Of a stretch of 50,195 nucleotides of DNA, positions 3,698 to 48,111 are shown in pieces. The DNA comes from Geobacteraceae bacterium. GTDB taxonomy: Bacteria > Desulfobacterota > Desulfuromonadia > Geobacterales > Geobacteraceae. The stretch is taken from positions 1 to 50,195 of the forward strand of contig JAMXLF010000049.1 of NCBI GenBank assembly GCA_024281055.1. The letters run 5' to 3'. Each line of letters starts with the position of its first letter. Position 1 is the first letter of the stretch. Both the position numbers and the translations under genes were made by a program. The notes under the pieces are model-generated. The model saw nothing but the letters and a program-made list of their open reading frames with translations, made no database searches and had not been told where the DNA came from.

Positions 3698-3740
3698 CCC
3701 CTCACCCGGCCTCCGGCCACCCTCTCCCGCTGGGAGAGGG
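3698..3740. repeat. CCCCTCACCC...CTCTCCC palindromic repeat, short copy
   Basis: Starts CCCCTCACCCGGCCTCCGGC and ends in the CTCTCCC/GGGAGAG hairpin. The first 33 bases match the beginning of the longer copy inside pfa3 (43615-43705). The 282-base gap between the glycosyltransferase-like gene and ilvA holds this and the following repeat, and no gene. Confidence 0.75.
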
Positions 3741-11931: not shown

Positions 11932-12258
11932 TCAGCTTGCTTTAGCTGTTTTAGTTGGAACGAGGTGAACTTCGAGCTTGCAGCCGACCGCCTGAGCATA
12001 TTTTTTCAAGGTCGCAATGGTCGGCGAGTGCCTCTGGTCCGAAAGCGCCGTCTCCAGCCGGGTCACGGCGGGCGGCTTCGTTCCCATCTTTTCCGCCACT
12101 TCCGCCTGAGTCAAACCAGCCTGCTGTCTCGCGAGCAGGAGTTCACGCAGAAGAGTGAACTCCATTTCCAGTTCCTCATATGCCGCTTTGAATTCCGGCT
12201 GCCGTTCCCATTCATCCACCATCTGGCGGTGCGTTTTCGTGGGTGCTTTTCTGGTCAT
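11932..12258 (-). CDS. XRE-family antitoxin (HigA-like)
   Basis: A 108-residue protein with a helix-turn-helix in its C-terminal half (ARQQAGLTQAEVAEKMGTKPPAVTRLE), preceded by a helical stretch. It would neutralise the toxin encoded just upstream and repress the operon by binding the palindrome at 12590-12607. Its start overlaps the toxin stop by 4 bases, giving toxin-first order as in HigBA systems. It is separated from the Kelch pseudogene by about 20 bases, convergently. Confidence 0.88.
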   Translation of the reverse strand: MTRKAPTKTHRQMVDEWERQPEFKAAYEELEMEFTLLRELLLARQQAGLTQAEVAEKMGTKPPAVTRLETALSDQRHSPTIATLKKYAQAVGCKLEVHLVPTKTAKAS

Positions 12259-12581
12259 GTTCCTGATACCTCCTTCTGCCGGCGGCGGGCAATGTCAAGC
12301 TCCCGCTTCGGCGTTTCCTGCGTCTTCTTGATGAACGAGTGGAGCATGATGATCCTCTTGCCCACCTTCATGCAATAGAACACCCGTGCAATTCCCTCGC
12401 GTCCTCTTGGCCGAAGTTCGAACAACCCTCCTCCCATTGCCCGCGAATGGGGCATGCGGAGATCGAGACCAAACTCTTCGAGCAGCTCGGTCAGCCGGGT
12501 ATAGGATGCTCGAATGTCAGCTGGCAAGGCATCAATTTCGAGCCGGACCTCTTCACTGTAGTAATCGATAGTCCACGGCAT
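12255..12581 (-). CDS. RelE/HigB-superfamily toxin (phage-derived Gp49-like)
   Basis: A 108-residue protein of the Gp49-like/HigB group. Features are YYSEEVRLEIDALPADIRASY, MPHSRAMGGGLFELRPRGREGIARVFY and VGKRIIMLHSFIKKTQETP, the last two being the conserved beta-sheet core with Arg and Lys residues of RelE-type mRNA interferases. The final KRELDIARRR helix is also typical. Probable activity is ribosome-dependent mRNA cleavage; this is by family and not shown. It is first in a two-gene operon with the antitoxin. Confidence 0.9.
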   Translation of the reverse strand: MPWTIDYYSEEVRLEIDALPADIRASYTRLTELLEEFGLDLRMPHSRAMGGGLFELRPRGREGIARVFYCMKVGKRIIMLHSFIKKTQETPKRELDIARRRQKEVSGT

Positions 12582-12587
12582 AAGTAT

Positions 12588-12616
12588 CTCATAACATATT
12601 TGTTATGTTTTTTCAA
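12588..12616 (-). promoter_or_regulatory. Promoter and operator of the toxin-antitoxin operon
   Basis: On the minus strand TTGAAA (12616-12611), a 17-base spacer and TATGAG (12593-12588) lie just before the toxin start. The perfect inverted repeat CATAACA-TATT-TGTTATG (12590-12607) covers the spacer and the -10, an arrangement expected for autorepression by the XRE antitoxin. Confidence 0.6.
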
Positions 12617-12632
12617 GAAGCAAAACCGACCG

Positions 12633-14201
12633 TTAGTTATCAAGCAGTCTTAGCAGCGCCGGGTAATCAACCTTGGCGTTATGCCGCTTGTCGAGGGGGA
12701 TGTGCCCGACAACCCGCACCTCGTCAATGCGGGCCCAAGAAAGCGCCGCCAGCAGCTCCGCTTCGGGGATCTCCACGCCCCTGGCCGGTTCGACGACGAT
12801 GACGCGTTTTCCCCTGCGCCGCACCAGTGCCGCCCTGCGCACCGCCGGATGCCCCAACGCCGCGCACTCGACCGCAAAGGGATACAGTGTTCCCCTCTCG
12901 TCGTCGATGACCGCGGACGACCTCCCCATGAGCCAGAGGCGGCCCAGGGCGTCGAAATAGCCGCTGTCCCCCGTGCGATGCCAGATCTCCCCGTCGACCC
13001 GCACTTTTGTCTCCTGGTCGCCGATATGATTGACGTACCCCTTCAGCACGTGGCCGCCGCTGACGACGATCTCTCCCGTTTCGCCGTCCGGGAGGCGCAG
13101 CCGCTCGAACTCCCCCGTCCCGAAAGGTCCGAGGGGTTTCCCCCACTGCGAGCCGATGATCCTGACCCGAATCTCGGCAACCGGCGTGCCCGCGAGCAAT
13201 CCCCCTCCCGTGCTCATTCTGGTCACGTCCGTTTCCGTCACCTCGCGCCATTTCAGCGTTGCAATCGGCTCCGCCTCCGTGGAACCGAATACCGCCACGA
13301 TGTCCGCCTCCGGAAAGACTTCCGCGAACCGCTTAAGGGAGCGGGGAAACACCGGCCCGCCGCCGGTAAAAACGGCAGCAAACCCGTCGATCCTCCGCCC
13401 CGCCTCTGCGCACCCGTCGCAGAGACGCTCCAGGAGCGCGGGGGAAGCCGTGGTCCGCGTCGGCCGGAGCCGGTCGATCTGGCGCAGAACCGGGGCAGGG
13501 TCGATTGACCCGGGCCGGCGCAGGTCCGCGTCCGGGATGATCGAAGTGACCCCGGAGGCCAGGTTCGCCAGGACGAAAACGGGAAGCGTGGTCAGGTCGA
13601 TTTGCCCCGGGGCCAGGGACACGGCCTTCTCCAGCACCCGGTACTGTTCGAGCAGAAAGCCGTGGCTGCGGACCACCCCCTTGGGAAGGCCGGTGCTGCC
13701 GCTCGTGAAGGTGATCAGCGCCGGCGCGTCTTCGGAGCAAGGGGAGATGTCCCGTTCCGGAGGCAGGTCCGCCGGGAGTCGCCACGGGACGGCCCCGGGG
13801 ATGAAGCCCGTGGCAAACCGGTGCGGGATGCGCCGCAGCGCGGGAGACACGAGCCGAAGAAGATGGGCCTTCGGCGAAGCGATGAGTCCCTGCGGCGGCA
13901 CGAGGGAGCAGCAGCGCTCCAGGTGGTCCCTGCCGGCGGACGGGTCGACGATCATGGCGGTGATTCCCCGGCGAAAGAGCGAGAGGAGTACGATGTAGAG
14001 ATCGATGGACAGGGGCTGGAAGACCAGGACCGTCTCGCCGGCCAGAAGTCCGTTTGTCCGCAGAAACGCTGCCCCCCTGGCCGTGGCCTCCTCCAGCCCG
14101 GCGAACGTCACGGTCCGGTCCCTGCCGCCACGGGACTCGATGATCGCCGCTGCTTCCGGACGTTCGCGCGCCCGCTGCTGCAGGAACTCCACGATGTTCA
14201 C
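12633..14201 (-). CDS. OleC-like adenylating ligase (beta-lactone synthetase family)
   Basis: A 522-residue ANL-superfamily enzyme. The P-loop is FTSGSTGLPKGV (165-176), FGSTEAEP is the A5 motif, RTGDSGYF is A7, and the C-terminal catalytic lysine lies in RHNAKVDYP (K510). The RHNAK ending and the DLTTLPVF...GVTSIIPDADLRRP segment resemble OleC, which converts beta-hydroxy acids to beta-lactones in olefin synthesis, more than ordinary acyl-CoA ligases. The start is GTG at 14201, overlapping the stop of the GNAT gene (GTGA). It is the last gene of the seven-gene minus operon. The true substrate is unknown; acyl-CoA or acyl-AMP synthesis is the alternative. Confidence 0.8.
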   Translation of the reverse strand: MNIVEFLQQRARERPEAAAIIESRGGRDRTVTFAGLEEATARGAAFLRTNGLLAGETVLVFQPLSIDLYIVLLSLFRRGITAMIVDPSAGRDHLERCCSLVPPQGLIASPKAHLLRLVSPALRRIPHRFATGFIPGAVPWRLPADLPPERDISPCSEDAPALITFTSGSTGLPKGVVRSHGFLLEQYRVLEKAVSLAPGQIDLTTLPVFVLANLASGVTSIIPDADLRRPGSIDPAPVLRQIDRLRPTRTTASPALLERLCDGCAEAGRRIDGFAAVFTGGGPVFPRSLKRFAEVFPEADIVAVFGSTEAEPIATLKWREVTETDVTRMSTGGGLLAGTPVAEIRVRIIGSQWGKPLGPFGTGEFERLRLPDGETGEIVVSGGHVLKGYVNHIGDQETKVRVDGEIWHRTGDSGYFDALGRLWLMGRSSAVIDDERGTLYPFAVECAALGHPAVRRAALVRRRGKRVIVVEPARGVEIPEAELLAALSWARIDEVRVVGHIPLDKRHNAKVDYPALLRLLDN

Positions 14202-15190
14202 GGCAATCTCCGCGCAAAGATCGCGTACTCCCGCATCTCGACGCCATGGTGGCCGCTGAGAATGCGGGAGCGGTTGTCCTCGTGGATGAGGGCGTGGATG
14301 GAGCGGCGGAAGCCTCTCCCTCGGGCCTGCTCCGTGAGTCTCGCCAGTAAAAGTGCCCCGATCCCTTTCCCGTTCCAGGCGGGGAGCACCGCGATCGACT
14401 TGAAGATCACCGTGTCGGCCGGCTCCCCCCGCCGTACCCGCAGCATGTCGGGCACGGCAAAGAGGAACCCGACCGGCATGCCTTCCCGCTCGGCAAAACA
14501 GACCAGCTCGGGCACGATGAACGGCCGCAGCGGGGAATACATCGCCAGGAATTCGCTCCGGTCGATGGCGGTGTACAGAAAGTTGTTCCGGAAACAGGCC
14601 ACGGAGAGCTCGTAGAGCCGTTCGAGCTCCCCCTCGAATTCATCCGGGTTCAGCGACCGAAAGGTTACGCCCGTGTCCCGTCTATTCCCCTCCAACGCCG
14701 TTCCGGCAACCGTCCATCCCAGGTCCGGGTCCAGGTTCGAGTAGTAGCGGGCAAGGGGCGAAAAACCGGCCGCCGCGAAGTGCCGGGGATAGTCGTCGGG
14801 ATTGTCCGGCTCCAGGAAGAACGGCGGCTCCGTCCCGCGCCGGGTCACAAACCGGTAGCGGCGCCAGGTGTTTCCGTCCATGGGGCCGATGGCGAGCGTA
14901 CACCCCTGGTCGGCCAGCACCCGGCAGGCGTGTGCCAGCAGGAGGGCGCCGGTGGTCGCATCCCGCGCCTCATAATGGCCGACCAGGCCGACCCGCTCGC
15001 CGGGACAGGGCGGCGTGGCGTGCCACCAGACGGAACAGCGGCCGGCGAGCATGCCGCTTGTGTCCAGTGCAGCAAAGTGGGCATCGGGTGCATGGAGGGT
15101 GAACTCCCTCCTTCCAAGCGGCGCAACACCTCCCCGCGCGCCGAGGGCCTCGAGCTCTTCGATGGATGCGACCTTCACGATCTCCGGCAT
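14198..15190 (-). CDS. Tandem GNAT-fold N-acetyltransferase-like protein
   Basis: 330 residues with two GNAT-like halves. The N-terminal half has HYEARDATTGALLLAHACRV and IGPMDGNTWRRYRF, a segment typical of two-domain GNAT proteins of unknown function. The C-terminal half has the acetyl-CoA loop VLPAWNGKGIGALLLARL followed by HALIHEDNRSR. It could acylate an amine or carry an acyl or aminoacyl group onto the operon's product, but no substrate can be read from sequence. AAGGTGG before ATG 15190 sets the start; a longer upstream open frame runs through a palindromic repeat and is rejected. It overlaps the OleC-like gene by 4 bases. Confidence 0.82.
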   Translation of the reverse strand: MPEIVKVASIEELEALGARGGVAPLGRREFTLHAPDAHFAALDTSGMLAGRCSVWWHATPPCPGERVGLVGHYEARDATTGALLLAHACRVLADQGCTLAIGPMDGNTWRRYRFVTRRGTEPPFFLEPDNPDDYPRHFAAAGFSPLARYYSNLDPDLGWTVAGTALEGNRRDTGVTFRSLNPDEFEGELERLYELSVACFRNNFLYTAIDRSEFLAMYSPLRPFIVPELVCFAEREGMPVGFLFAVPDMLRVRRGEPADTVIFKSIAVLPAWNGKGIGALLLARLTEQARGRGFRRSIHALIHEDNRSRILSGHHGVEMREYAIFARRLP

Positions 15191-15235
15191 GTTTCCACCT
15201 TCTCTTCGGCAGACAGCCGAACCGCCCCCCTCCTT

Positions 15236-15296
15236 CCTCCCCCCGCCGGGGGGAGAACACTTCGCCCTCCCACAGCGGGGGAGGGTGGGGTGGGGG
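15236..15296. repeat. C-rich/G-rich palindromic repeat between the UbiA and GNAT genes
   Basis: CCTCCCCCCGCCGGGGGGAG is followed by CCCTCCCACAGCGGGGGAGGG and a GGGTGGGGTGGGGG run. It resembles the CCCTCACCC/CTCTCCC element seen at 3698 and 43615. It provides the only sizeable gap (106 bases) in the seven-gene operon and could lower expression of the last two genes. Confidence 0.6.
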
Positions 15297-16208
15297 CTAT
15301 CTACCCAGATATCTGACAAGCAGGGGGATCACCCCAAGGCTCAGATACATGGCAAGCGTCCAGAGTCCGGAAAAGTTCTCGATCTGTTTTCCCCTGCCCG
15401 GCGACGGTGCGCGTCCGAAGGAGCGGGCAAGGCACGACGCCGCAAGCAGCAGGACGGCGAGGAGCAGGGTTACGGGGACCCCGAAGCCCACCAGGCGGGC
15501 CCCCTGCGAGACGCAGAGGGCAGTGAGAAACATGACCCCCACCCACACCGCCAGTGCCCTTCCCCTCCCCCAGAGCCAGGAGTAGGTTTCCACCCCCTCC
15601 TCCTCGTCCTCGGGGGCCCGGATCTTTCGGCCGATCTCGATGACGATGCCGTTCAGGTAACTGGCCACGAGGAACCAACCGAGCCCCCGCGGCGGACCTG
15701 AGCCGGCCGGCAGCCAGTCGCAGGCGGTGGCGTAAATGTCGAAGATCGGCATGACCAGCATGTGGGAGAGCATGTAGGCAACGGGCCTCCCCCTCAGCCA
15801 CCGCCGGACGAAGAACTCCTTGCCCATGAGGGCGAGGTATGCCCAGGCGACGATGAGCAGCAGCGCCTGCATCGGCCGGAGCCAGAGGGAACCCGCCAGC
15901 TGGATGGCTGCCGCGCCGACTCCCACCCAGCCCAGCTCCCGCAAGGTGATCAACCCGCGGGGAACCGGCCGATACGGCCGGAAACGGGCGTCTTCCTCCG
16001 CATCCTTGAATTCGTCCGCGATGCGAAGTTGCAGGAAGAAGAAAAAGGCGGTGACGAAGGCAACCAGGGCCGCCGCGGGCCGGAGCGTGCTGGCGCCCCT
16101 CAGCAGCGCCGAATAGCTCATGGCCGAAAGACTGAACGCGAGAATGAGCGGCCCGTGAGCACATACCGGGAAACGCTCCTTCTGGTAGATCCACCATCGG
16201 CTGGTCAT
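15297..16208 (-). CDS. UbiA-superfamily prenyltransferase
   Basis: Integral membrane enzyme of the family that transfers a prenyl chain from its diphosphate to an aromatic or polar acceptor. 303 residues with about eight or nine hydrophobic segments. The first Asp-rich motif is ADEFKDAEED (D65, D69, D73) followed by RPYRPVPRGLI, typical of the family. The second is an acidic cluster EIGRKIRAPEDEEEGVETY near residue 210. The acceptor cannot be read from sequence; quinone, heme O, chlorophyll and digeranylgeranylglyceryl phosphate enzymes all share these motifs. GGAGGG precedes ATG 16208. It lies 26 bases after the dikinase-like gene in the operon with HMG-CoA reductase and a polyprenol-kinase-like gene, which supports an isoprenoid substrate. 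Confidence 0.88.
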   Translation of the reverse strand: MTSRWWIYQKERFPVCAHGPLILAFSLSAMSYSALLRGASTLRPAAALVAFVTAFFFFLQLRIADEFKDAEEDARFRPYRPVPRGLITLRELGWVGVGAAAIQLAGSLWLRPMQALLLIVAWAYLALMGKEFFVRRWLRGRPVAYMLSHMLVMPIFDIYATACDWLPAGSGPPRGLGWFLVASYLNGIVIEIGRKIRAPEDEEEGVETYSWLWGRGRALAVWVGVMFLTALCVSQGARLVGFGVPVTLLLAVLLLAASCLARSFGRAPSPGRGKQIENFSGLWTLAMYLSLGVIPLLVRYLGR

Positions 16209-16234
16209 GGCTTCCCTCCGGGAAAAGAGCAGAC

Positions 16235-18964
16235 TCACACCCCGGCCTTGTGCAGTATCGTGATGAGCCCTTCGGCCCCGTTCAGGCGGACCCTGTCGCC
16301 GTCGCCCAGGATCTTCGTCGCGTTCTTCACCCCGACCACCGCGGGAATGCCCATTTCCCGGGCGACGATCGCCGAGTGGGAGAGGAGGCTCCCCTTTTCG
16401 ACGATCAGGCCGCTGATCGAGGGAAAAAGGACGATCCAGCCGGGATCGGTCTGCTGCGCCACCATTATTTCGCCGTTGAGCCTCACCTCGCTGTCCGGTT
16501 CCCTGACGATCCGCACCTCGTTCTCCACGATGCCCCGGCAGCAGCCGAGTCCCTTCAGCTGGCCCGCCTTTTCCACTTCCTCTTCTTCTCCCGCAAAGAC
16601 GTTGCGCCGGTAGACCTCCCCGTAGGTTTCGAGACGGTCGTCCGGGGTGGCCGCTGCGTAACGGGCGAACTCCTTGCGCCGGACCTTGGCCAGCGCCCCC
16701 AGGTCGGGACAGGTCGACGTCCCTTCGATGAAGGACCAGACCTCGTCGATCTGCAGGTAGAAGATGTCCTCCCGGTCCGCCAGGATCCCTTCCCCACGCC
16801 ATTTGTCCCCCAGTGCCCGCATGATCCTGCGCACCAGGTCATAGGCCTCGCTCCGGGCAAAGCGCTGGTTTTCCCGGTTCTTGACCGCTTTGCGGGTGTT
16901 CCCCAGGACCCACCGGTAGACGAGAAGCTTCGGCACGACGAGGAGACATCTCTTCCCCGTGAGCCGTTGCCGCACCGACTCTTCGGCCTGCTCGCGGATC
17001 TTCCGTTCGTGCGCGAAGCTGCTATCTGGATCGGGGACCCCGCTGCGGAGATAATTCTGGATGACGGAAACGCAGAAGGTGGGATCGTCCTTCACCGGGA
17101 CGGATTCCAGTTTCATCTCGTTGATGGAGCGGACGCCGTATTTCGCCAGATAAGCGGCGAACGCCGCGCCTATCCCGGCGAAGGCCGGGTCCTGCCTCAG
17201 AAGGAGGACAACCTCCCTGGGCGGATGCTCCAGAAAGGCCGCCTTCAACGCCGGGTCGGCGGCGATCTGCGCGGCCACCCGGAACAGTTCGGTGGTGACC
17301 TCGGTGCTCCTGATGCCCCCTTCGCCGCAGAGCAGGTCGTTGTGCAGGCTCCCGGTCGGGTCCAGCTGCCATTTCTCGGTCAGCCGCCGCAGAAGGCCAT
17401 AGAACACCATGGCTTCGAAATCGTTCAGGATCGGCGCCTTCCACTGCCAGAGCACCTCGTCCTCCAGCAGCCGGAAGGTTTCGAACAGCCGGGAGGCACT
17501 AAGCCCACTGAAATCACGGCCCGCGTACCGGGAGTACATATCGTCGAAATGGCGGTGAAAGGCGGCGATCCTCTTCTCCAAGGTAACATGGTTGACCAGC
17601 ATCCTCACGCCGACCCAGAGAAGTCGCGGGAAATGCACCAGGTACCGTTCGAAGGCGCTTTTCGGCTGCCCGTCCGGGTTGAATTCGCCGGTCACCTGCA
17701 CCCCCATCATCTGCTCCATGAAGGCCTTGTTGTACTTGTAGCCGGGCATCAGCGAAATGAGCCGGTACCAGTTGAGGAGGTTGTAGTAGACCCGGCCCTG
17801 GATGAGGCCGAGCATGTTCTCGAAGACGTACCGGCTCCTGAAGACGGTCTTCGCGTCCACTCCCATCATCTGGCAGAACTGGCAGTAGACCGCGAAGTAC
17901 GCCTTCCGGATGAAGGAGAAGGTCAACGGGGTGGTTACCCCGGCATAGCTTTCGACGATGTTGGAGTTGTCCCAGACCTTGTGATTGTCCCGCTCCGGCG
18001 CCGGGGCTTCCCCGAGGGTGGTGATGGGGCGGGCCTGGAGGAGATAGATGCGGCCGCCGGAGACGGCGAACTCGATATCCATCGGTCTCCCCGCGTCATC
18101 CTGGACCTTGCGGGCAAACGCGTGCAACTCCCGCAGCATCCGTTCATCGAGGGTCGGCTGGTACGACGTCTCCCCGGTCACGTCGACCTTTTCCGTGCCC
18201 CCCTCCGCCGCGAAGGCGACGCTCTGCCTCTTTTCCGCCAGCTCGCGGCTGACGCAGGCGCCACCCGCATCGAGCACATAGGTATCCGCGGTGAGGGTTC
18301 CGGCAACGAGCCCCTCGCCCAGCCCCCAGGTGCTGCAGACGAGCATCTCTTCCCGGTTGCCGGTGAGGGGATTCGCCGTAAAGATGACGCCCGCCACCTC
18401 GGGCTCGACCATCTGCTGCACGACCACGGCTATCTGGAGCGACCAGTAGGCCAGGCCGCTCTTCTGCCGGTAGAACACGGCCCGGTCGCCGAACAGGGAT
18501 GCCCAGCAGCCGCGGACGGCGTCCATGAACTGGCCGAAGCTCCGCACATTCAGAAAACTCTCCATCTGCCCGGCAAAGGAGAGATTGACGCTGTCCTCGT
18601 CGGCCGCCGACGAACGGACCGCCACCGGTCGGCGCCCGTTTTCGGAAACCCTTTCCCAGACGGCACGAAGAACGGCCGTGTCCTCTTCGGCAATGGCCAT
18701 GGTTTCCAGGTGCTTGCGGACCCGGGCAGCTTTTGCCGGGATTTCGGCAGCCTCCGTCGCGAGCAGCGTCAGCAGCTCCCCATCCCCCTCGCTCACGTGG
18801 CGCAGGAACAGGGTGCTGATGGTGGCCCACGGGGGCACGGGGACGCCGAGAGCTTTCAGGCGATGAAGCCCCAGCGCCTTTCCTCCCACGAGCGTGACAG
18901 CATCACTGCCGGAAGGGGGGGATTCGGTATCCCGGACGATATAGCTCGACTCGTTCTCGTTCAT
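16235..18964 (-). CDS. PEP/pyruvate-binding dikinase-like protein (rifampin-phosphotransferase-like)
   Basis: 909 residues. The N-terminal third is the PPDK-type ATP-grasp domain (VGGKALGLHRL near residue 26, AVRSSAADEDSVNLSFAGQ, GLGEGLVAG, DIEFAVSGGRIYLLQARP). A long helical middle domain (about 340-790) takes the place where rifampin phosphotransferases bind their drug. The C-terminal swivelling domain has TDPGWIVLFPSISGLIVEKG and the phosphohistidine in SLLSHSAIVARE (about H863). Such proteins move a phosphoryl group from ATP through His to an alcohol or to pyruvate. A role phosphorylating an operon intermediate is more likely than PEP synthase, given the divergent centre and the neighbours. 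AGGAA before ATG 18964 sets the start, 10 bases after the previous gene. Confidence 0.87.
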   Translation of the reverse strand: MNENESSYIVRDTESPPSGSDAVTLVGGKALGLHRLKALGVPVPPWATISTLFLRHVSEGDGELLTLLATEAAEIPAKAARVRKHLETMAIAEEDTAVLRAVWERVSENGRRPVAVRSSAADEDSVNLSFAGQMESFLNVRSFGQFMDAVRGCWASLFGDRAVFYRQKSGLAYWSLQIAVVVQQMVEPEVAGVIFTANPLTGNREEMLVCSTWGLGEGLVAGTLTADTYVLDAGGACVSRELAEKRQSVAFAAEGGTEKVDVTGETSYQPTLDERMLRELHAFARKVQDDAGRPMDIEFAVSGGRIYLLQARPITTLGEAPAPERDNHKVWDNSNIVESYAGVTTPLTFSFIRKAYFAVYCQFCQMMGVDAKTVFRSRYVFENMLGLIQGRVYYNLLNWYRLISLMPGYKYNKAFMEQMMGVQVTGEFNPDGQPKSAFERYLVHFPRLLWVGVRMLVNHVTLEKRIAAFHRHFDDMYSRYAGRDFSGLSASRLFETFRLLEDEVLWQWKAPILNDFEAMVFYGLLRRLTEKWQLDPTGSLHNDLLCGEGGIRSTEVTTELFRVAAQIAADPALKAAFLEHPPREVVLLLRQDPAFAGIGAAFAAYLAKYGVRSINEMKLESVPVKDDPTFCVSVIQNYLRSGVPDPDSSFAHERKIREQAEESVRQRLTGKRCLLVVPKLLVYRWVLGNTRKAVKNRENQRFARSEAYDLVRRIMRALGDKWRGEGILADREDIFYLQIDEVWSFIEGTSTCPDLGALAKVRRKEFARYAAATPDDRLETYGEVYRRNVFAGEEEEVEKAGQLKGLGCCRGIVENEVRIVREPDSEVRLNGEIMVAQQTDPGWIVLFPSISGLIVEKGSLLSHSAIVAREMGIPAVVGVKNATKILGDGDRVRLNGAEGLITILHKAGV

Positions 18965-18974
18965 GGTAGCGTTC

Positions 18975-20348
18975 CTATCTCGACGCCAGGGTCCGGACGG
19001 CGTAGACGGCGACCGCCGAAGCTCCCACGCACGCCAGGCGCACCCGCTGGCGCAGCAGGCTGTCTTCCCCGATGACCCGGTACCGGTCCAGGAGGACCGT
19101 GAAGGTCGTGACCGCCAGCAGGCTCCCGCCCCATACCAGGGCGAGCGCCGCCAATTCCTCCCCATCCGCGTAAAGGACGACGGGGAGCACCGCAATGCAG
19201 ACCGTTGCGGCAATACTGCACGCAAGTCCGGCCGGATATCTTCGATCGTGCAATTTCTCCGTGAATCCCCCCGTGCCGGCAACCACTCTCGTCAGGAAGT
19301 AGAAGGAGATGATCGTGATCTGCCCGACGACCGACGTGAGGTACGGCAGGAAGATTTCCCGGTAGTTTTCCACCGTGTTGGCCACGAAGATCAAGACGGC
19401 CGGGACGAGGGCCGAGTAGAAGAGGACCTTTATCTGGTATCTCTTGATCTCTTCCGCCACCCGCGACGAAAAGTAGGAGACGAGAACGTAGAGGAAAACC
19501 TGGGCCAGCAGCAGGGGGAGAAACCAGTAGACATCGCACAGGCTCCAGGCGGCGTAATTCAAAAGGATCATGCCGATGAGGCCGCTGGTCCTGAATATCC
19601 TCTGCCTGACGGAGATCAGGGCGGTCAGCGCGATAAGGAAGAGGAGGATGAACAGCTGCGTGGCGGCCTCGGCCAGGGAATGGCCGGTCATCTTCGCCAG
19701 GATGTAGTAAGTGCCGAACGGCACGAAGATGTTGTCGCTCCCCGCCGTGGAGATCGCCTCGAAGCCCGTGACGAGGAGGGCTATGACCAGGGCGGTCAGG
19801 ACCGATTCCGGTCTGCCGATGGGGGTGAGCAGCAGGAGGGAGAGATGGACACAGAGGAACGTGACGAAAAAGAAGGCGAGCGACCCTTCGAGGCTCTTCC
19901 TGTTTCCTTCCACGTCGAAGGTGATGGCGCCGTACCTTTCACCGACGAGCGCGGCAAACGTGTCGGCCACGGTCATGACCAGGATGGAGACGAGGTACAG
20001 GACCGGTCTGTCGTGCGCCAGGAGAAACACCAGGTAGACGGACACCGGGAAGTAGACGGCGCCGTGAGACTCACGCCCCACGCCGTGCACCGACCGAAGC
20101 CCTCCCATCCTCCTGGTCAGCTCGATGATCCCGATCATCCCCGCCGCCAGGACGAGGACCGTCCAGTGGGAACGGATGACGAAGGGGAGCGCGAGGGCGA
20201 CGAGCCCCCCCAGGAGATGGACGGTTTTCCGCGCCAGCTCGGGGAGCGAGGGAAACGCCCTGCGGACCGCTTCGCCGGCGGCAAAGACCAGGAGGTAGGC
20301 GCAGGCGACGGCGGCAGCGCTCATCAGTTCGGCACGGACGGAGATCAT
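18975..20348 (-). CDS. SEC59/VTE5-like CTP-dependent polyprenol/phytol kinase with extra membrane domain
   Basis: 457-residue integral membrane protein. The first 210 or so residues match dolichol/phytol kinases and CDP-diglyceride synthetase-like enzymes: ELARKTVHLLGGLVAL (38-52), VADTFAALVGERYG (127-140) and GNRKSLEGSLAFF (148-160), the CTP- and metal-binding region. Such enzymes phosphorylate isoprenoid alcohols with CTP. A second half of similar size with several more membrane segments is unusual, since these kinases are commonly half this length. ATG 20348 overlaps the stop of the DUF3419 gene (ATGA). Its neighbours HMG-CoA reductase and UbiA point to an isoprenoid substrate; cytidylyltransferase activity is the alternative. 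Confidence 0.82.
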   Translation of the reverse strand: MISVRAELMSAAAVACAYLLVFAAGEAVRRAFPSLPELARKTVHLLGGLVALALPFVIRSHWTVLVLAAGMIGIIELTRRMGGLRSVHGVGRESHGAVYFPVSVYLVFLLAHDRPVLYLVSILVMTVADTFAALVGERYGAITFDVEGNRKSLEGSLAFFFVTFLCVHLSLLLLTPIGRPESVLTALVIALLVTGFEAISTAGSDNIFVPFGTYYILAKMTGHSLAEAATQLFILLFLIALTALISVRQRIFRTSGLIGMILLNYAAWSLCDVYWFLPLLLAQVFLYVLVSYFSSRVAEEIKRYQIKVLFYSALVPAVLIFVANTVENYREIFLPYLTSVVGQITIISFYFLTRVVAGTGGFTEKLHDRRYPAGLACSIAATVCIAVLPVVLYADGEELAALALVWGGSLLAVTTFTVLLDRYRVIGEDSLLRQRVRLACVGASAVAVYAVRTLASR

Positions 20349-21442
20349 GTCACCTCTTCGATCACGAGGGACTTGTAGAAGAACGCCTTGTCCTCGGCGA
20401 ACAGGCGCCCTGCGAGCTCGGTCAGGGGAGTGAGCCTTTCCGCAAGCGACTCCGGGTGCTTCCGGTCCGCCAGCATGTTCCAGTAGACAAGGCGGGCTCC
20501 CTGCCGGGAAGACCCGACGATCCTCTCCAGCTCTGCGGCATACTCTTCCCGGCTCATGTACTCGAAGATGTCGGAAAGGTTGAACCCGTCGAAGCGCAGC
20601 TCCCCGTGGGCCGTCAGCGCCTCGGTGACGCCTCCCCTGAACGTCACCAGCCGGTCGAGATTCCCCCGGATGGCGGCGAAGTTCTCCCTTCTCAGGTAGA
20701 AGGGGAGCGCCCGGTCGAACCCGCCGGTCAGGATGTATTCGAGATAGGGATTGCGGTCGGTGGGGAGGGCGGTGAGCGCATACCGGGTCCGGTCGAGGAT
20801 GCGGCCAGCCACATCCCCCTCGACGTAGCGGAAGAACTCGGGATCGCGCCCCAGCCGTCCCATCACCGTGCGGCCGAAGAATATCCTGAACAGGAGCCGC
20901 CAGCGGAGGTTGTCCCAGACGTCCCGGTAGAACGCGGCGCGCCCGGCCGCGTCCCGCGGCTCCAGGAGTGCGGCGACGGTGGCGCGGCCGTGGATGAGCG
21001 GCAGGACCCACCTGCGGAACAGGCGAAAATAGCCCTCGAACCTGCCGATGGTGGTGATCCCCCTGGCGATCAGCTCCCGGTGCCCGTCCCAGTAACGGCG
21101 CGCCTCCGGGGCCAGCCCCTCCCGAAGGCTCCGGTAGGTGCCGACCCGGTCCGCCCCGCTGCGCACACCGAGGAACGCCAGCAGCTCGTCATGGTCGAGG
21201 GAGGCGAAGGCGGCCCGGCGCAGTTCCAGGCATGCCAGCTGGGCTTCGCTGAGGTCGACGGCAAGGACCAGCGACGGAGCGCCGCTGAGAATGCTGAAGG
21301 TGTTGTCGCCGGCGGACGCTACGGAGAGGTAGACGCCCCCCTCCTTCACGTCGAGCGCCCGCAGGAGGACATCCGCGTCCTCCCAGCAGTTCGCGTACCG
21401 GACCAGGTCGAAGCTCGCCCGCTCTTCTATCCCTCGTTCCAT
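20345..21442 (-). CDS. DUF3419 family protein (BtaA-like SAM-dependent transferase)
   Basis: 365 residues with the DUF3419 pattern: the N-terminal LVRYANCWEDADVL, the SAM-binding loop SVASAGDNTFSIL (40-52), LAVDLSEAQLACLELR, and the later segment FDGFNLSDIFEYM. The characterised relative BtaA transfers a 3-amino-3-carboxypropyl group from S-adenosylmethionine to diacylglycerol in betaine lipid synthesis. No BtaB methyltransferase is beside it, so ordinary DGTS betaine lipid is unlikely to be the sole product. It could attach the same group to a different lipid alcohol. It is 16 bases downstream of the HMG-CoA reductase stop and overlaps the next gene. Confidence 0.85.
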   Translation of the reverse strand: MERGIEERASFDLVRYANCWEDADVLLRALDVKEGGVYLSVASAGDNTFSILSGAPSLVLAVDLSEAQLACLELRRAAFASLDHDELLAFLGVRSGADRVGTYRSLREGLAPEARRYWDGHRELIARGITTIGRFEGYFRLFRRWVLPLIHGRATVAALLEPRDAAGRAAFYRDVWDNLRWRLLFRIFFGRTVMGRLGRDPEFFRYVEGDVAGRILDRTRYALTALPTDRNPYLEYILTGGFDRALPFYLRRENFAAIRGNLDRLVTFRGGVTEALTAHGELRFDGFNLSDIFEYMSREEYAAELERIVGSSRQGARLVYWNMLADRKHPESLAERLTPLTELAGRLFAEDKAFFYKSLVIEEVT

Positions 21443-21458
21443 GGCACCCCGCTGCCCG

Positions 21459-22739
21459 TCACTCCTTCCGTCTGCCGTACCTCAGGTGGGCCAGGGTGAA
21501 CTGGTCCGCCGCCAGGGCCCCCATGATGGAGATCTCCCCCGCCAGCACCGTGGCGGCACAAATCTCGGCAAACTTCCGGGCCGTCCCCTCTCCCCGGCAC
21601 CCCAGCATCTCCAGGCATTCGCGCTGGGTCGGCAGGCCGGTCCCGCCGCCTACGGTGCCAACGATCAGGTTGGGGAGGGAGACGGAGATGTAGAGGTCCC
21701 CCGCACCGGTCACCTCGACGCGGGTTATCCCGACCGACGCCTCGGCCACGCAGGCGGCGTCCTGCCCGCAGGCGATGAACAGGGCGGCCAGGCCGTTGGC
21801 GTAATGCCCCTGGACGCCGATGGAGCCGCTTTGCACCCCGCCGACGAACGACATCTTCCAGTACTCCATCACCATCTCGGGGGTGGTGTGGAGAAAGCGC
21901 ATGAAGAGCTCGCGGGGGACGACCACTTCCGCCGTGACCTTCTTCCCCCGGACGAAGAGGTGGGAGATGGCGGTGGCCTTCTTGTCGCCCGACAGGTTGC
22001 TTTCGATGAACCAGTGCCGCGGCTTTATGGGACATTCGGCGACAATGCGCCGGCAGACCGCGTCGGTGGCGATGGTGACCATGTTCTGGCCGGCCGCGTC
22101 CCCGGTGACGTACTCGAAATTGAGGTACACGTGGTTCCCCTCCAGGGTCACCTTCATGTCCTCCAGCCGGCCGTGGCCGGTGGTCTTCCCCGCCTCTTCC
22201 CGCAGGGCGTCGAACTGCCCGACGACCCAGACGATGAAGCGGCCCGCCTCCACCATGTCGTCGAACACGAACCCGGGCGCCCGCGACACCCGTTCGGTGA
22301 GGCAGAGGACGCTTGCACCGCCGCTCAGGCTGATGATCTTGGCGCCGCGGTTGTGGGAGGCGACCAGGGCCCCCTCGGACGTCGCCAGGGGGACGAAGTA
22401 GTCGCCGTGGGCGTACGCCCCGTTTATCCGGAGCGGACCCACCACCCCGACGGGGAGCTGGGCGGTGCCGATGTAGTTCTCGATGTTTCCCCGAAAGATC
22501 TCCGGCTCCTCGATGTGCCGTTCCCCGCTCAGGTACTCGAACCGTATGCCGCTCCCCTCCAGGATGGCAAGCCTGCGCTTCTGCGCCTCCCCGCTCCCGT
22601 CGGTCTCCCGGGGGAGACCCGGCGGCAGCGGCTCCTCGCTGACCGGCCTCGGCCTGAGCCGTGCCGCGATCCGGTCGAGGTCCTTCCCCTTGAGCAGCGT
22701 TTCGATGATCCCTTCCGTTACCACCCTGGAAACCGGCAT
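21459..22739 (-). CDS. Hydroxymethylglutaryl-CoA reductase, class I-like
   Basis: NADPH-dependent reduction of HMG-CoA to mevalonate by family. 426 residues without a membrane anchor. Motifs are ENYIGTAQLPVGVVGPL (87-103), the catalytic Glu in TSEGALVAS (E122), GDAAGQNMVT, the Lys in GDKKAT, the Asp in CGQDAACVAEAS, TVGGGTGLPTQRECLEMLG, and the C-terminal His in LAHLRYG (H418). The TVGGGTGLP and ENYIG forms are those of class I (archaeal/eukaryotic) enzymes. GGAGG precedes ATG 22739. It is the first gene of the seven-gene operon. No other mevalonate-pathway gene is in the window, so it may act on another acyl thioester or depend on genes elsewhere. Confidence 0.92.
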   Translation of the reverse strand: MPVSRVVTEGIIETLLKGKDLDRIAARLRPRPVSEEPLPPGLPRETDGSGEAQKRRLAILEGSGIRFEYLSGERHIEEPEIFRGNIENYIGTAQLPVGVVGPLRINGAYAHGDYFVPLATSEGALVASHNRGAKIISLSGGASVLCLTERVSRAPGFVFDDMVEAGRFIVWVVGQFDALREEAGKTTGHGRLEDMKVTLEGNHVYLNFEYVTGDAAGQNMVTIATDAVCRRIVAECPIKPRHWFIESNLSGDKKATAISHLFVRGKKVTAEVVVPRELFMRFLHTTPEMVMEYWKMSFVGGVQSGSIGVQGHYANGLAALFIACGQDAACVAEASVGITRVEVTGAGDLYISVSLPNLIVGTVGGGTGLPTQRECLEMLGCRGEGTARKFAEICAATVLAGEISIMGALAADQFTLAHLRYGRRKE

Positions 22740-22993
22740 CCGACACCTCCGTTCACATCTCCTTCATGCCGGGAAACAACCTTGACCAGATCCCCTTTAC
22801 CGCATGCTCCCATAATCAAGAATATCATCGGCGGGAGAAACCTCAATGAAGCGAAGGCAGGTAGCCCGTGACGAGCTTGTCTGTTTAATTAGCATTTGCA
22901 ATTTCCGCATATTGGAGTTAGCATGAATTGTTATTATTTTCCGTGGTGTTAGCCACGCAGGCTCCCACCGGGAAGCATTCCGCAAGGATCCCC

Positions 22994-24997
22994 GTGATAT
23001 TTTCCAGCATGAAAACCAAGATGACGTTCATGGTTTTTTCCCTGGTGCTCGTGCTCATCTCGACGATCGCCGGGATTACCTTCGTCTACTTCGAGACAAC
23101 AATCAAGGGGATCATCTCCAGTCAACAGTTTACGCTGGTCACGGCCGAGGCCGACCAGATCGACAACAAGATTCATGACGCGCGGATCGGTCTCGAAACC
23201 CTGGCCGAGATCATCACCCCGGACATCATCGCCGACCGCGGGAAAGCCCGGCGGTTTCTCGATCTCCAGAAGGATGAACGGGAATTCTTCAACGACGGCC
23301 TGTTCCTCTTCTCGGCGGGAGACGGACTGGTCGCAGCCGCTCCCGGAAAGCCCGACAGCATCCACCAGGTCAACACTGTCCGTGCCTACGTCGAAAAAAC
23401 GCTGCAAACCGGTAGGCCCGCTATCGTCGGGCCATTCACCTCCACTTCCCCGCAGAAAAGTCATCCGATCATCGTGTTCACCGTTCCCGTCGTCGATGCC
23501 CGCAAGAAGACGATCGCGGTACTGGGGGGCAGCATGAACCTGCGGGAACAGCGTTTCCTGGGGCAGATGGCCGCCATCAAGCTGGGCAAGAGCGGCTATC
23601 TTTCCCTGTACGACAAGAACAGGGTGATCATCGTCCACCCGAAAAAACATCTGATCCTGGAAAAGGCCCCCGAGGGGACCAACAAGTTGCTGGACAAGGC
23701 CCTGGCAGGGTTCGAAGGGACCGACGAAACGGTCATACCGGATGGCAGGCGCGTCCTGAGGTCGGTGAAGCGCCTGAAATCGGTCGGCTGGGTCCTGGCG
23801 GCCACCTATCCGCTGGCCGAGGCGTACACCCCCGTCTACCTGGCCCGCCAGTACTTTTTGATCGGCGGGATCGCGGCAGCCTTCCTGTCGGTGCTCCTCG
23901 TCTGGTCAGCGATGAAGTACCTTACCGCGCCGCTCGTGTCGTTCACGCGGCATATCAAGGCGTTATCGAACGGGGAGGAAGGAAAGCATCTCGTCCCGAT
24001 CGCCTCCGACGACGAGATCGGCACCCTTGCCCAGGCGTTCAACCAGATGCTGCTGGAACTTGACCGGCAGAAAACGGAGCTGCACCAGAGCGAGGAACGG
24101 TATCGGCTGCTGGCCGACAATGCCACCAATGTCATCTGGACCATGGACCTGGCGGGTCGTTTCACCTACTTCAGTCCTTCGGTCGAGCGTCACTGGGGCT
24201 ACACGGCGGACGAGGCGCTGAACTTGTCGCTGGAGCGACTGCTGACCCCGGCTTCCGCCGCCCTGGTGCGGAAGAAGTTCGACGAGGCCGTTGCCCTCGT
24301 GAGCGCCGGCAGGCGCATGCAGGGGGGATATTTCGAACTGGAGATCATCCACAAGGATGGCTCGGCGTGGTGGGCCGACGTGACCTACGGCGGCATGTAC
24401 AGCGCCTCGGGCGAATTCGTCAGCTTCATCGGCTCGACCCGGGATATTACCGAGCGCAAGGAGGCGGAGCGGGAACTTGAGCGGCTTGCCCGTGAAGATG
24501 CCCTGTCCGGGGTGGCAAATCGCCGACATTTCGACGAGCTCCTGGAAATCGAGGTGCGCCGGGCTTCCCGCAACGGTGATTACCTCTCGCTCCTTCTGTG
24601 CGATGTGGATTTTTTCAAGCCCTTCAACGATCATTACGGCCATCTCGCCGGCGACGCCTGCCTTCAGGCCGTGGGCCGGATCCTCCGCCACGTTTTCCGG
24701 CGGGCCGGCGACATTCCCGCGCGCTACGGCGGCGAGGAGTTCGCAGTCATCCTGCCGGGAACCTCTCCCGAGAATGCCGCCATAACGGCCGAAACACTGC
24801 GCCGGGAGATGATCGGCGCAGCCATTCCCCATGCCCGCTCGGATGTGGCGGACTGCGTCACCATCAGCATCGGCGTGGTCGGGGCCCGGGTCAGTGCCGA
24901 CCGGAAGGCGGTGTGGTTCACCCACGAAGCGGACAAGGCACTGTACCAGTCGAAGAAAAACGGAAGAAACCGGGTGACCTGCGTTTCCTTCGACTGA
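22994..24997 (+). CDS. Membrane diguanylate cyclase: Cache-HAMP-PAS-GGDEF
   Basis: Makes cyclic di-GMP in response to an external ligand. The domains in order (667 residues) are a membrane helix (MTFMVFSLVLVLISTIAGITF), a periplasmic double-Cache domain (about 40-275), a second helix (YFLIGGIAAAFLSVLLVW), HAMP, a PAS/PAC sensor (about 365-490), and GGDEF from about 500 to the end. The active-site loop is GGEEF at 579-583, and the inhibitory I-site RAGD stands five residues before it, so the enzyme should be active and feedback-inhibited. Start: ATG 23009 has no ribosome site, whereas GTG 22994 has AAGGA five bases before it, so GTG is chosen. It diverges from the HMG-CoA reductase operon; the 254-base gap shows no other gene. 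Confidence 0.92.
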   Translation: MIFSSMKTKMTFMVFSLVLVLISTIAGITFVYFETTIKGIISSQQFTLVTAEADQIDNKIHDARIGLETLAEIITPDIIADRGKARRFLDLQKDEREFFNDGLFLFSAGDGLVAAAPGKPDSIHQVNTVRAYVEKTLQTGRPAIVGPFTSTSPQKSHPIIVFTVPVVDARKKTIAVLGGSMNLREQRFLGQMAAIKLGKSGYLSLYDKNRVIIVHPKKHLILEKAPEGTNKLLDKALAGFEGTDETVIPDGRRVLRSVKRLKSVGWVLAATYPLAEAYTPVYLARQYFLIGGIAAAFLSVLLVWSAMKYLTAPLVSFTRHIKALSNGEEGKHLVPIASDDEIGTLAQAFNQMLLELDRQKTELHQSEERYRLLADNATNVIWTMDLAGRFTYFSPSVERHWGYTADEALNLSLERLLTPASAALVRKKFDEAVALVSAGRRMQGGYFELEIIHKDGSAWWADVTYGGMYSASGEFVSFIGSTRDITERKEAERELERLAREDALSGVANRRHFDELLEIEVRRASRNGDYLSLLLCDVDFFKPFNDHYGHLAGDACLQAVGRILRHVFRRAGDIPARYGGEEFAVILPGTSPENAAITAETLRREMIGAAIPHARSDVADCVTISIGVVGARVSADRKAVWFTHEADKALYQSKKNGRNRVTCVSFD

Positions 24998-38925: not shown

Positions 38926-39028
38926 GCATGACGCATGCTAGTACATCCGCAGTATTCGCAAAGGAAAGAGGGTGGCACGGAGACAGTGACGCCGGCGTAG
39001 TCCTTTCTGCGCCGAGGAGCTGACGCCG

Positions 39029-46048: not shown

Positions 46049-46115
46049 GGGCGACCGGCGGGTCGCTCATCATTGAAACGTCGGCCAAAGCGGGCGACCC
46101 GCCGGTCGCCCCTAC
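46045..46115. repeat. GTAGGGGCGACC palindromic repeat, perfect copy
   Basis: Arms 46045-46066 and 46094-46115 are perfectly complementary over 22 bases with a 27-base loop. Bases 46046-46048 of the left arm are the pfa3 TAG stop. A degenerate copy at 1820-1875 supplies the queC stop in the same way. The hairpin lies between pfa3 and oleA and could cause partial termination or stabilise the upstream RNA. Confidence 0.9.
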
Positions 46116-46147
46116 AAATTTTAAACATCTCTGGTTGCGGGTATCCC

Positions 46148-48081: not shown

Positions 48082-48111
48082 TCATTTTTATAACCATGGA
48101 GGATATGTCGC

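Follow-up and report, generated by a model that had tools for sequence, protein, structure and literature searches.

Seven consecutive open reading frames on the minus strand, running from 22739 to 12633 of the window (the whole 50,195-nucleotide stretch of Geobacteraceae DNA that was analysed), form a gene block that recurs in other genomes and is probably a single biosynthetic unit spread by horizontal transfer. Chances are about even that the operon directs the synthesis of an undescribed prenyl-containing, aminocarboxypropylated and N-acylated polar lipid through the five-step route outlined below. A bolder proposal, to which we give somewhat less than even chances, is that this product would define a novel class of membrane lipids in bacteria, with a prenylated core and an aminocarboxypropyl head that bears an N-acyl group. 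Its pathway, found in at least seven phyla, would be mobile and would have recruited a homologue of HMG-CoA reductase (HMGR) for the four-electron reduction of a non-HMG acyl thioester. The operon contains the following features:

21459..22739, minus strand: HMGR (HMG-CoA-reductase family), 426 aa, gene 1 of the operon; PF00368
20345..21442, minus strand: DUF3419/BtaA-like protein, 365 aa, putative SAM-dependent 3-amino-3-carboxypropyl transferase; PF11899
18975..20348, minus strand: KIN, membrane protein of the CTP-transferase/SEC59-VTE5-DUF92 type, 457 aa, putative CTP-dependent lipid/prenol kinase
16235..18964, minus strand: rifampin-phosphotransferase-like dikinase (DIK), 909 aa; PPDK_N and PEP-utilizers domains
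15297..16208, minus strand: UbiA superfamily protein, 303 aa; PF01040
15191..15296, no strand: intergenic gap of 106 bases with a G+C-rich palindrome at 15265-15285
14198..15190, minus strand: GNAT, YghO/bacterial-ceramide-synthase-type N-acyltransferase, 330 aa; PF00583
12633..14201, minus strand: AMP-dependent acyl ligase, 522 aa, overlapping the GNAT gene by 4 bases; PF00501

In gene order, the genes are separated by 16 bases, an overlap of 4, 10, 26 and 106 bases, and an overlap of 4; the coordinates thus reproduce the layout described in the sequence-only reading, with seven genes in the same direction, gaps of -4 to 26 bases and one gap of 106. The repeat that had been placed in the long gap is also present: a pattern search of the window finds look-alikes of the palindrome at 3720-3740 and 43639-43691, and with up to 3 mismatches the pattern matches 16 times in the window versus 5.0 expected, a count reached in none of 100 shuffles. 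Within 12000-23500, no further copy is prominent among the best 20 of 41 direct-repeat families. Both the gene spacing and the recurrence of the seven-family block elsewhere bear out the earlier proposal of a single operon.

The co-occurrence of the seven families in related genomes, which had been suggested as a check on the grouping, was examined in 80 loci, which represent the more similar half of 158 relatives of UbiA; the condition named there for refutation, that no related genome keeps the block, is clearly contradicted. All seven genes lie on one strand in 35 loci, six (all except HMGR) in 9, and fewer than six in 36, many of them at contig ends; of the 45 loci whose sequence extends far enough in both directions, 30 carry seven genes and 5 carry six. 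Because the seven families recur as a single block in so many loci, their grouping is above chance; of the other neighbouring families, the commonest is present in 11 of 81 sources. The order HMGR-UbiA-DIK-BtaA-KIN-GNAT-ligase is identical in 33 of the 35 complete loci, which span seven phyla by record title and of which 25 belong to Verrucomicrobiota. The pairwise identity matrices of six genes from 34 sources are correlated (0.70-0.90), at values that 500 permutations did not equal for any of the 15 pairs. Among 97 relatives, the 4 genomes with BtaA matches are also those with strong UbiA and HMGR matches. The dikinase and UbiA occur together in 70 of the 80 loci. HMGR is dispensable, being absent from 13 of the 52 genomes that carry an operon-type UbiA, and in Calothrix-type stretches the kinase gene is missing too.

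The UbiA protein matches PF01040 with 39.9 bits against a cut-off of 34.2, and its predicted structure (pLDDT 95.6) has the UbiA superfamily fold, with digeranylgeranylglyceryl-phosphate (DGGGP) synthase 6m31 as the best Foldseek match (E 5.3e-6) and 4od5 as the best VIA match (Z 21.1, rmsd 3.4, 264 aligned). The first Asp-rich motif is present (D65, D69 and D73, invariant in 61 rows); as the second metal-binding DxxxD motif is replaced by EIGRKIRxPxDEExG, prenyl transfer by this protein is an assumption. The dikinase contains PPDK_N (244.4 bits) and PEP-utilizers (84.8 bits) domains in Pfam and an invariant H863 in its mobile-His domain, and its nearest solved structures are 5hv2 and 5fbs (E about 3e-122), named PEP synthase in the PDB and presumably rifampin phosphotransferase. 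Assignment of the dikinase itself as PEP synthase is not supported: Pfam reports two domains and no C-terminal PEP/pyruvate-binding domain, and the best NCBIfam score is 821.1 against a cut-off of 883. KIN has no Pfam match at E <= 0.001; within its family (34 proteins including that of the window), PF01148 is matched in 6 and DUF92 in 4, with best E values of 7.4e-6 and 2.1e-4, and the window protein matches neither. The family alignment reveals the invariant positions E37xxRKxxH, D129, G136 and K151xxEG, and CDP-DAG synthetase is the sole outstanding PDB fold match to the model (pLDDT 90.4), with 4q2g aligning at VIA Z 8.6 and rmsd 4.5 over 158 residues; KIN is thus a putative CTP-dependent lipid or prenol kinase, only weakly tied to this function. 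The DUF3419 protein, for which a family alignment of 24 rows was made, is assigned through its Pfam match (PF11899, 200.8 bits against a cut-off of 28.2) as a putative SAM-dependent 3-amino-3-carboxypropyl transferase. None of the other six operon proteins matches a methyltransferase family in Pfam or NCBIfam, and the operon has no recognised BtaB partner.

The GNAT protein matches PF00583 (43.9 bits) and aligns with E. coli YghO over 250 columns, covering window residues 76-328 of 330 (hhalign probability 98.9, E 2.1e-17). CC_1154, the Caulobacter counterpart of YghO, is required for dihydroceramide (PMC9386255). The ligase matches PF00501 (AMP-binding, 165.8 bits), falls below the cut-off of 478 for NCBIfam PRK09274 (381.8 bits), scores 230.1 and 218.7 bits with OleC models whose cut-offs are 900 and 850, and shares 25% identity over 361 columns with the E. 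coli fatty acyl-AMP ligase; in E. coli BL21, yghO adjoins the genes for fatty acyl-AMP ligase and spt. The GNAT and ligase together look like an N-acylation module and not an OleC pathway. The OleC-type beta-lactone chemistry envisaged earlier is left unsupported, since the ligase lies far below the OleC cut-offs and a gene for a YghO-type N-acyltransferase stands next to it.

The HMGR protein is the sole match to PF00368 in its genome (394.8 bits in Pfam) and scores 358.1 bits with TIGR00533, below the NADPH-HMGR equivalog cut-off of 441.8. When residues are mapped through alignment to 1dq8, the equivalents of E559, K691, D767, H866, N755 and R590 are kept in all 52 operon-type HMGRs, the first four being, in human numbering, what we take to be the catalytic Glu, Lys, Asp and His. 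The position of K735, presumably the lysine that binds the HMG carboxylate in human HMGR, is Lys in the aligned human HMGR and 6hr7 chains and never Lys in the operon-type proteins (M in 36, V in 7, T in 4, A in 2, L in 2 and S in 1), and the position of S684 is Glu in 52 of 52. In 47 of the 52 proteins, an Arg or Lys directly precedes the K735 position and could substitute for the lost lysine in carboxylate binding. The pocket changes are not special to the operon, because a Salinivenus HMGR of another branch is altered at the same two positions. The operon HMGR is a putative reductase of an acyl thioester other than HMG-CoA.

The intact catalytic residues and family membership of HMGR would also suit a mevalonate-boosted prenyl lipid pathway, in which its mevalonate feeds prenyl diphosphate to UbiA. 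This explanation, quite improbable in our view, was compared with the 52 genomes carrying an operon-type UbiA, for 3 of which completeness is stated. None of the 52 has a match above cut-off to mevalonate kinase, to diphosphomevalonate decarboxylase or to archaeal HMG-CoA synthase; among 14 control genomes, the same models pass in 5, 2 and 3, and HMG-CoA synthase in 4. HMG-CoA synthase (PF08540) is matched in 2 of the 52, both Roseofilum, and in none of the 35 with HMGR inside the block, whereas Dxr of the MEP pathway is matched in 50 (48 over cut-off). On the other side, sub-cut-off matches occur to the mevalonate kinase model (GHMP kinases) in 47 genomes and to the decarboxylase in 11, and the comparison covered the standard mevalonate route. 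HMGR itself is found in 39 of the 52 genomes: in 35 it lies within the block, in 3 it is of the operon type but located elsewhere, and in 1 it belongs to a different branch. Because the rest of the mevalonate pathway is not found by the models used and K735 is missing, the earlier placement of HMGR as an isoprenoid-supply gene is not sustained; judged from sequence, the operon HMGR very likely acts outside any mevalonate pathway.

An archaeal-type glycerol ether lipid, with UbiA acting like DGGGP synthase, the dikinase forming glycerol phosphate, KIN replacing CDP-archaeol synthase and the other genes decorating the product, is unlikely, although DGGGP synthase is the closest match of UbiA by both sequence and Foldseek and the KIN fold is nearest to CDP-DAG synthetase. 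Other UbiA folds match equally well (Z 21.1 for 4od5 versus 19.1), and 15 of the 52 genomes match the PcrB/GGGP-synthase family, 11 of them above its cut-off, with 2 matches near full length and the others short. There is a slim chance that KIN produces a lipid phosphate on which UbiA acts as a DPPR-synthase-type phosphoribosyltransferase: the membrane PRTase 8j8j matches the UbiA fold (Foldseek E 2.8e-3; VIA Z 16.9, rmsd 3.8, 257 aligned) and GRK is invariant in the second UbiA motif, but 8j8j ranks below DGGGP synthase and archaeal UbiAs, and a profile search of PDB chains, which matched 3 sequences at E <= 1, did not recover it. Most improbable is a long-chain hydrocarbon branch unrelated to the rest of the operon, in which the ligase would be an OleC partnering an OleA-type synthase and an OleB-like hydrolase at 46073-48081. 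The product of 46073-47191 passes PRK09258 (497.9 against a cut-off of 285) and that of 47188-48081 is haloalkane-dehalogenase-like, under cut-off, these models being equated by us with OleA and OleB; however, GNAT and ligase are adjacent in gene order in 46 of 48 GNAT-bearing loci, the family of the 46073 gene occurs in 3 of 81 sources (the window, L029 and L032), and the ligase misses the OleC cut-offs.

An unusual polar membrane lipid, as first suggested in the sequence-only reading, stays the most economical interpretation, and the two families that point to an isoprenoid in it are UbiA and the kinase. The substrates, order of steps and identity of the product in the following route are those that we infer. 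A small acceptor, probably phosphorylated first by the rifampin-phosphotransferase-like dikinase, would be prenylated by UbiA to give a lipid alcohol or phosphate, and the CTP-dependent SEC59/VTE5-like KIN would phosphorylate or activate a lipid alcohol of the pathway. The DUF3419 enzyme would then move the 3-amino-3-carboxypropyl group of SAM onto a hydroxyl of a lipid, much as BtaA modifies diacylglycerol; because the block is without a BtaB partner, the amine is expected to stay free and not to be trimethylated. The ligase would activate a fatty acid, which the YghO-type GNAT would attach to this amine, similar to N-acylation in bacterial ceramide synthesis, and the HMGR-family protein would carry out the four-electron reduction of a non-HMG-CoA acyl thioester to provide an alcohol for the lipid.

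If this proposal holds, bacteria of many phyla make an undescribed lipid, and the HMGR family, famous for one substrate, uses another. Bacterial HMGR genes would then be unsafe markers of the mevalonate pathway, because 37 of the 39 HMGR-bearing genomes have no PF08540 match. The block also provides testable roles for DUF3419 and YghO-type enzymes in contexts other than those already known, and points to a lipid that can be sought.

The proposed pathway shares parts with several known systems. In betaine-lipid (DGTS) synthesis, BtaA adds the 3-amino-3-carboxypropyl group of SAM and BtaB trimethylates it; the operon DUF3419 enzyme is likewise expected to transfer this group to a lipid hydroxyl, but the operon lacks a methyltransferase family and contains UbiA, kinases, HMGR and the N-acylation module. 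Like the bacterial ceramide cluster (spt, acpR, aasR, epimerase and YghO/CC_1154), it pairs an adenylate-forming enzyme for acyl activation with a GNAT of the YghO type, whereas serine palmitoyltransferase (spt), ACP and epimerase are absent from its seven families. The affinities of UbiA to DGGGP synthase and of KIN to CDP-DAG synthetase recall archaeal ether-lipid synthesis, from which the operon differs in the additional aminocarboxypropyl, acyl and reductase steps; of the 52 genomes, moreover, only 2 have a GGGP-synthase-family match of nearly full length. The dikinase resembles rifampin phosphotransferase and PigC in its ATP-binding domain and related middle and phosphohistidine domains but, unlike them, travels with UbiA. 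Phytol salvage for tocopherol in plants employs the VTE5 and VTE6 kinases with the UbiA-type HPT; the operon similarly places a prenol-kinase-type membrane protein beside UbiA, yet it is bacterial, has no recognised aromatic-acceptor gene and contains five further enzymes.

The source genome comprises 4.44 Mb in 103 contigs, of which the window is contig C49. The following block was delineated from open reading frames and families:

22739 down to 12633, minus strand: seven-gene block encoding, in gene order, an HMG-CoA-reductase-family protein (HMGR), a DUF3419/BtaA-like protein (BtaA), a SEC59/VTE5-like membrane protein (KIN), a rifampin-phosphotransferase-like dikinase (DIK), a UbiA-superfamily protein (UbiA), a YghO-type putative N-acyltransferase (GNAT), and an AMP-dependent acyl ligase

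The sequence-only reading had the coordinates and description of this operon right: the seven minus-strand genes are separated by 16, -4, 10, 26, 106, and -4 bases, and six of the seven families were confirmed with Pfam, KIN having no Pfam match at E up to 0.001. G+C-rich palindromes occur at 3720-3740, 15265-15285, and 43639-43691, one of them inside the 106-base gap, and their pattern, with up to three mismatches, has 16 matches in the window, where 5.0 would be expected. Two overlapping small minus-strand genes (11932-12581) immediately downstream of the operon resemble, by eye, a RelE/HigB-type toxin and an HTH antitoxin.

Among 97 relatives, BtaA, strong UbiA, and HMGR matches were each found in four genomes, and these were the same four, namely the source genome, G011, G028, and G091; weak UbiA matches in G030, G039, and G052 were counted as other UbiAs. 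The full set of seven is present in G011 and G091, arranged as HMGR-UbiA-DIK-BtaA-KIN-GNAT-ligase; the order in the window is a rearranged form of this. In G028, parts of the set sit at the ends of contigs and frames are broken. When 84,980 species genomes were scanned with a UbiA alignment, 158 relatives emerged, and the best 80 of these were kept; judged by record title, the 80 span 12 phyla, with four records lacking a phylum. By profile detection, with bit thresholds set by hand, all seven genes lie on one strand in 35 of the 80 loci (identical order in 33, GNAT-ligase shifted to the front in two), nine loci hold six genes without HMGR, and 36 hold fewer than six. The co-occurrence that the sequence-only reading had proposed to look for in other genomes therefore exists: the 35 complete blocks fall in seven phyla, comprising Verrucomicrobiota (25), Nitrospirota, Thermodesulfobacteriota (Geobacteraceae), Bacteroidota, and Pseudomonadota (two each), and Planctomycetota and Gemmatimonadota (one each). 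Through six-gene sets the range extends to Elusimicrobiota, Melainabacteria, and Cyanobacteriota, and UbiA alone was detected in Hydrogenedentota and Rhodothermota among the 80 loci. Where flanking sequence sufficed on both sides (45 loci), seven genes were found in 30, six in five, five in four, and three or fewer in six.

When all open reading frames from the 80 loci and the window were clustered, 46 to 72 of the 81 sources held each of the seven families and only 11 held the eighth, so the unit ends with these seven. Pairwise identity matrices of six genes (KIN excluded) from the 34 sources in which these six were full enough correlate at 0.70 to 0.90, a value to which host kinship contributes; in each of the 15 comparisons, all 500 permutations stayed below what was observed. 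The rows of the alignments were hand-picked (HMGR 22, BtaA 24, UbiA 3, 26, or 61, KIN 17 or 34, DIK 22, GNAT 21, ligase 21). In the UbiA tree, phylum labels are clustered beyond chance (16 changes against 34.5 when shuffled), and the two Nitrospirae rows are nested among Geobacteraceae rows with support of 98/91 and 100/98; the Nitrospirae metagenome-assembled genome (MAG) GWC2_56_14 contains two diverged copies of the whole block. The nesting and the two copies suggest horizontal transfer, on an informal reading of the tree and of MAG contigs in which mis-binning may occur. The block is solidly established, as are its discreteness and its spread.

Pathway searches covered 52 genomes, all with operon-type UbiA. 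A first list combined 57 of the 80 loci with the source genome, G011, and G091, and loci L025, L040, L056, L065, L070, L091, L095, and L097 were then dropped; among the 23 unlisted loci, L020, L021, L022, and L083 were taken, from record titles or position, to share a genome with listed loci, and 19, many of them short Verrucomicrobiota contigs, were omitted by choice. All seven genes lie in the fetched stretch in 29 of the 52, HMGR lies in the block in 35, and eight show just one or two genes.

HMGR is present in 39 of these genomes and absent from 13, including Gastranaerophilales, Endomicrobia, Calothrix, and a Burkholderiales MAG. At four of the nine six-gene loci the sequence starts within 1.5 kb of UbiA, so that the absence of HMGR rests there on the genome search, which covered L082 (taken as the genome of L083 too) and L094 and left out L091 and L097. 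A cyanobacterial variant is formed by Calothrix and Spirulina relatives (L044, L051, L055, L056, L063, and L087; at about 6.7-10 kb of these loci), in which UbiA-DIK is consistently preceded by a radical-SAM/SPASM protein, a 364-aa membrane protein, which has no Pfam match in the L044 set, and a small protein. Between their DIK and BtaA genes, L044, L051, and L056 have a large AMP-ligase-containing gene; that of L051, the only one of the three scanned, is an AMP-ligase/acyl carrier protein (ACP)/thioester-reductase fusion. As L055 has no such gene in that place, it was rejected as a replacement for HMGR and is probably an insertion. The cyanobacterial and HMGR-less variants may make related lipids.

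The sequence-only reading counted HMGR among three families that act on isoprenoids; mevalonate supply was rejected as the main reading. HMG-CoA synthase (PF08540) was matched in two of the 52 genomes, both Roseofilum (82.9 and 83.9 bits) with HMGR apart from UbiA, and in none of the 35 with HMGR in the block. Because PF08540 matched only four of 14 control genomes, and neither Methanocaldococcus nor Sulfolobus, an archaeal HMG-CoA synthase model was also run, and none of the 52 exceeded its cut-off. The same holds for mevalonate kinase (weaker matches in 47) and diphosphomevalonate decarboxylase (weaker in 11), and the MEP-pathway marker Dxr was matched in 50 of the 52 (48 over cut-off), being absent from G011 and G097.

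The protein itself points the same way, with the HMGR of the window scoring 358.1 bits, below the equivalog cut-off of 441.8. For comparison with the human enzyme, in which K735 binds the HMG carboxylate, 52 operon-type HMGR sequences were used: that of the window, 48 taken from the loci, and three of Roseofilum and UBA2566. Positions aligned with E559, R590, D690, K691, K692, N755, D767, and H866 are kept in all 52; at the S684 position every sequence has Glu, and at the K735 position M, V, T, A, L, or S, so that this lysine is lost throughout. Just before the K735 position, 46 sequences have Arg and one has Lys, which leaves room for a shifted carboxylate site. In Roseofilum and UBA2566, HMGR is separate from the other operon genes, none of which was found in the 20 kb around it. 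Both changes recur in an HMGR of another branch from a Salinivenus MAG (G126:C186, 2112-3356, minus strand; 40% identity; Val at the K735 and Glu at the S684 position), whose genome has no HMG-CoA synthase over cut-off; they are thus not peculiar to the block, and HMGRs that do not use HMG may be more widespread than this operon. An HMGR without the synthase has precedent, since most Legionella lack HMG-CoA synthase according to excerpts of an isoprenoid-gene review (PMC13001223). Judged by its sequence and surroundings, the HMGR of the block very likely has no part in a mevalonate pathway, and it probably acts on a substrate other than HMG-CoA.

The predicted UbiA model (pLDDT 95.6) has digeranylgeranylglyceryl phosphate synthase 6m31 as its best Foldseek match (E 5.3e-6), and VIA gives 4od5 at Z 21.1 (rmsd 3.4, 264 aligned), 6m31 at Z 19.1 (4.7, 279), and the membrane PRTase 8j8j at Z 16.9 (3.8, 257). 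The motif 1 acids D65, D69, and D73 do not vary across 61 rows; motif 2 departs from its usual form and contains an invariant G193-R194-K195. Near-full-length GGGP-synthase matches are scarce, which makes archaeal ether-lipid synthesis less likely as the function of the block. The solved structures nearest to DIK are 5hv2/5fbs, which we take to be rifampin phosphotransferase, and DIK accompanies UbiA in 70 of the 80 loci, including cyanobacterial stretches (L036, L063, L070, and L087) in which the remaining operon genes were not found; because of this constancy, DIK is guessed to phosphorylate the acceptor of UbiA. In KIN, E37xxRKxxH, D129, and K151xxEG do not vary, forming a motif presumably linked to SEC59/DGK1/VTE5 kinases, and there are weak matches of its family to PF01148 (6/34 members) and DUF92 (4/34), the latter presumably linked to VTE6. 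No PDB chain was found for it by sequence at E up to 10, and CDP-DAG synthetase is the sole notable fold match of its model (Foldseek E 0.09, prob 0.99; VIA Z 8.6, rmsd 4.5, 158 aligned).

Other lipid-related and neighboring genes of the window are as follows:

1836-2750: FolE2-type GTP cyclohydrolase, near the next gene
2990-3676, plus strand: TIGR04282 arsenosugar-biosynthesis glycosyltransferase (206 bits against 134)
within 30631-49296, plus strand: PfaA-type polyunsaturated-fatty-acid synthase (TIGR02813, 1744 bits against 1010)
within 30631-49296, plus strand: second KS/FabA megasynthase
within 30631-49296, plus strand: PRK09258 ketoacyl synthase III (497.9 against 285), which we take to be OleA-type
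within 30631-49296, plus strand: haloalkane-dehalogenase-like (OleB-like) hydrolase, then a PurT-like gene

The 30631-49296 region looks, from its gene content, like a polyunsaturated-lipid or hydrocarbon cluster. The OleC-type role that the sequence-only reading gave the operon ligase, like membership in a hydrocarbon pathway, was rejected as the main reading, since the ligase falls short of the OleC model cut-offs and adjoins GNAT in gene order in 46 of the 48 loci having a GNAT.

Each enzyme of the block is within a known superfamily, and the block probably makes a polar lipid. We somewhat favor a prenyl part in this lipid, and the chances that it carries an N-acylated aminocarboxypropyl group are about even. 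The BtaA of betaine-lipid synthesis transfers an aminocarboxypropyl group of SAM, and the DUF3419 protein of the block, for which no convincing PDB chain was found by sequence (best E 0.2), would supply the amine for N-acylation in this form; no methyltransferase family that could cap the amine was found among the proteins of the block. The ligase would activate a fatty acid, and GNAT would place the acyl group on the amine. No published description of the seven-gene set was found in open-licence PMC text, and the product may be a new lipid class.

The GNAT profile matches E. coli YghO with 98.9% probability (E 2.1e-17, 250 columns). In Caulobacteraceae, it matches 13 of 40 genomes at E up to 0.001, comprising the query genome, eight others at E 1.8e-14 or better, and four weaker ones. 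Dihydroceramide production in Caulobacter depends on five genes, two of them being the counterpart, CC_1154, and that of the acyl-activating enzyme CC_1165, according to excerpts of PMC9386255. In E. coli BL21(DE3), yghO lies beside genes for a fatty acyl-AMP ligase, an epimerase, an ACP, and serine palmitoyltransferase (spt). The YghO homology, the ceramide precedent, and the neighboring gene order make fatty acid activation and amine acylation the most likely role of the GNAT-ligase pair. Although spt is present in the E. coli BL21(DE3) cluster and absent from the seven families of the block, the block and the bacterial ceramide cluster both pair a YghO-type GNAT with an acyl-activating gene.
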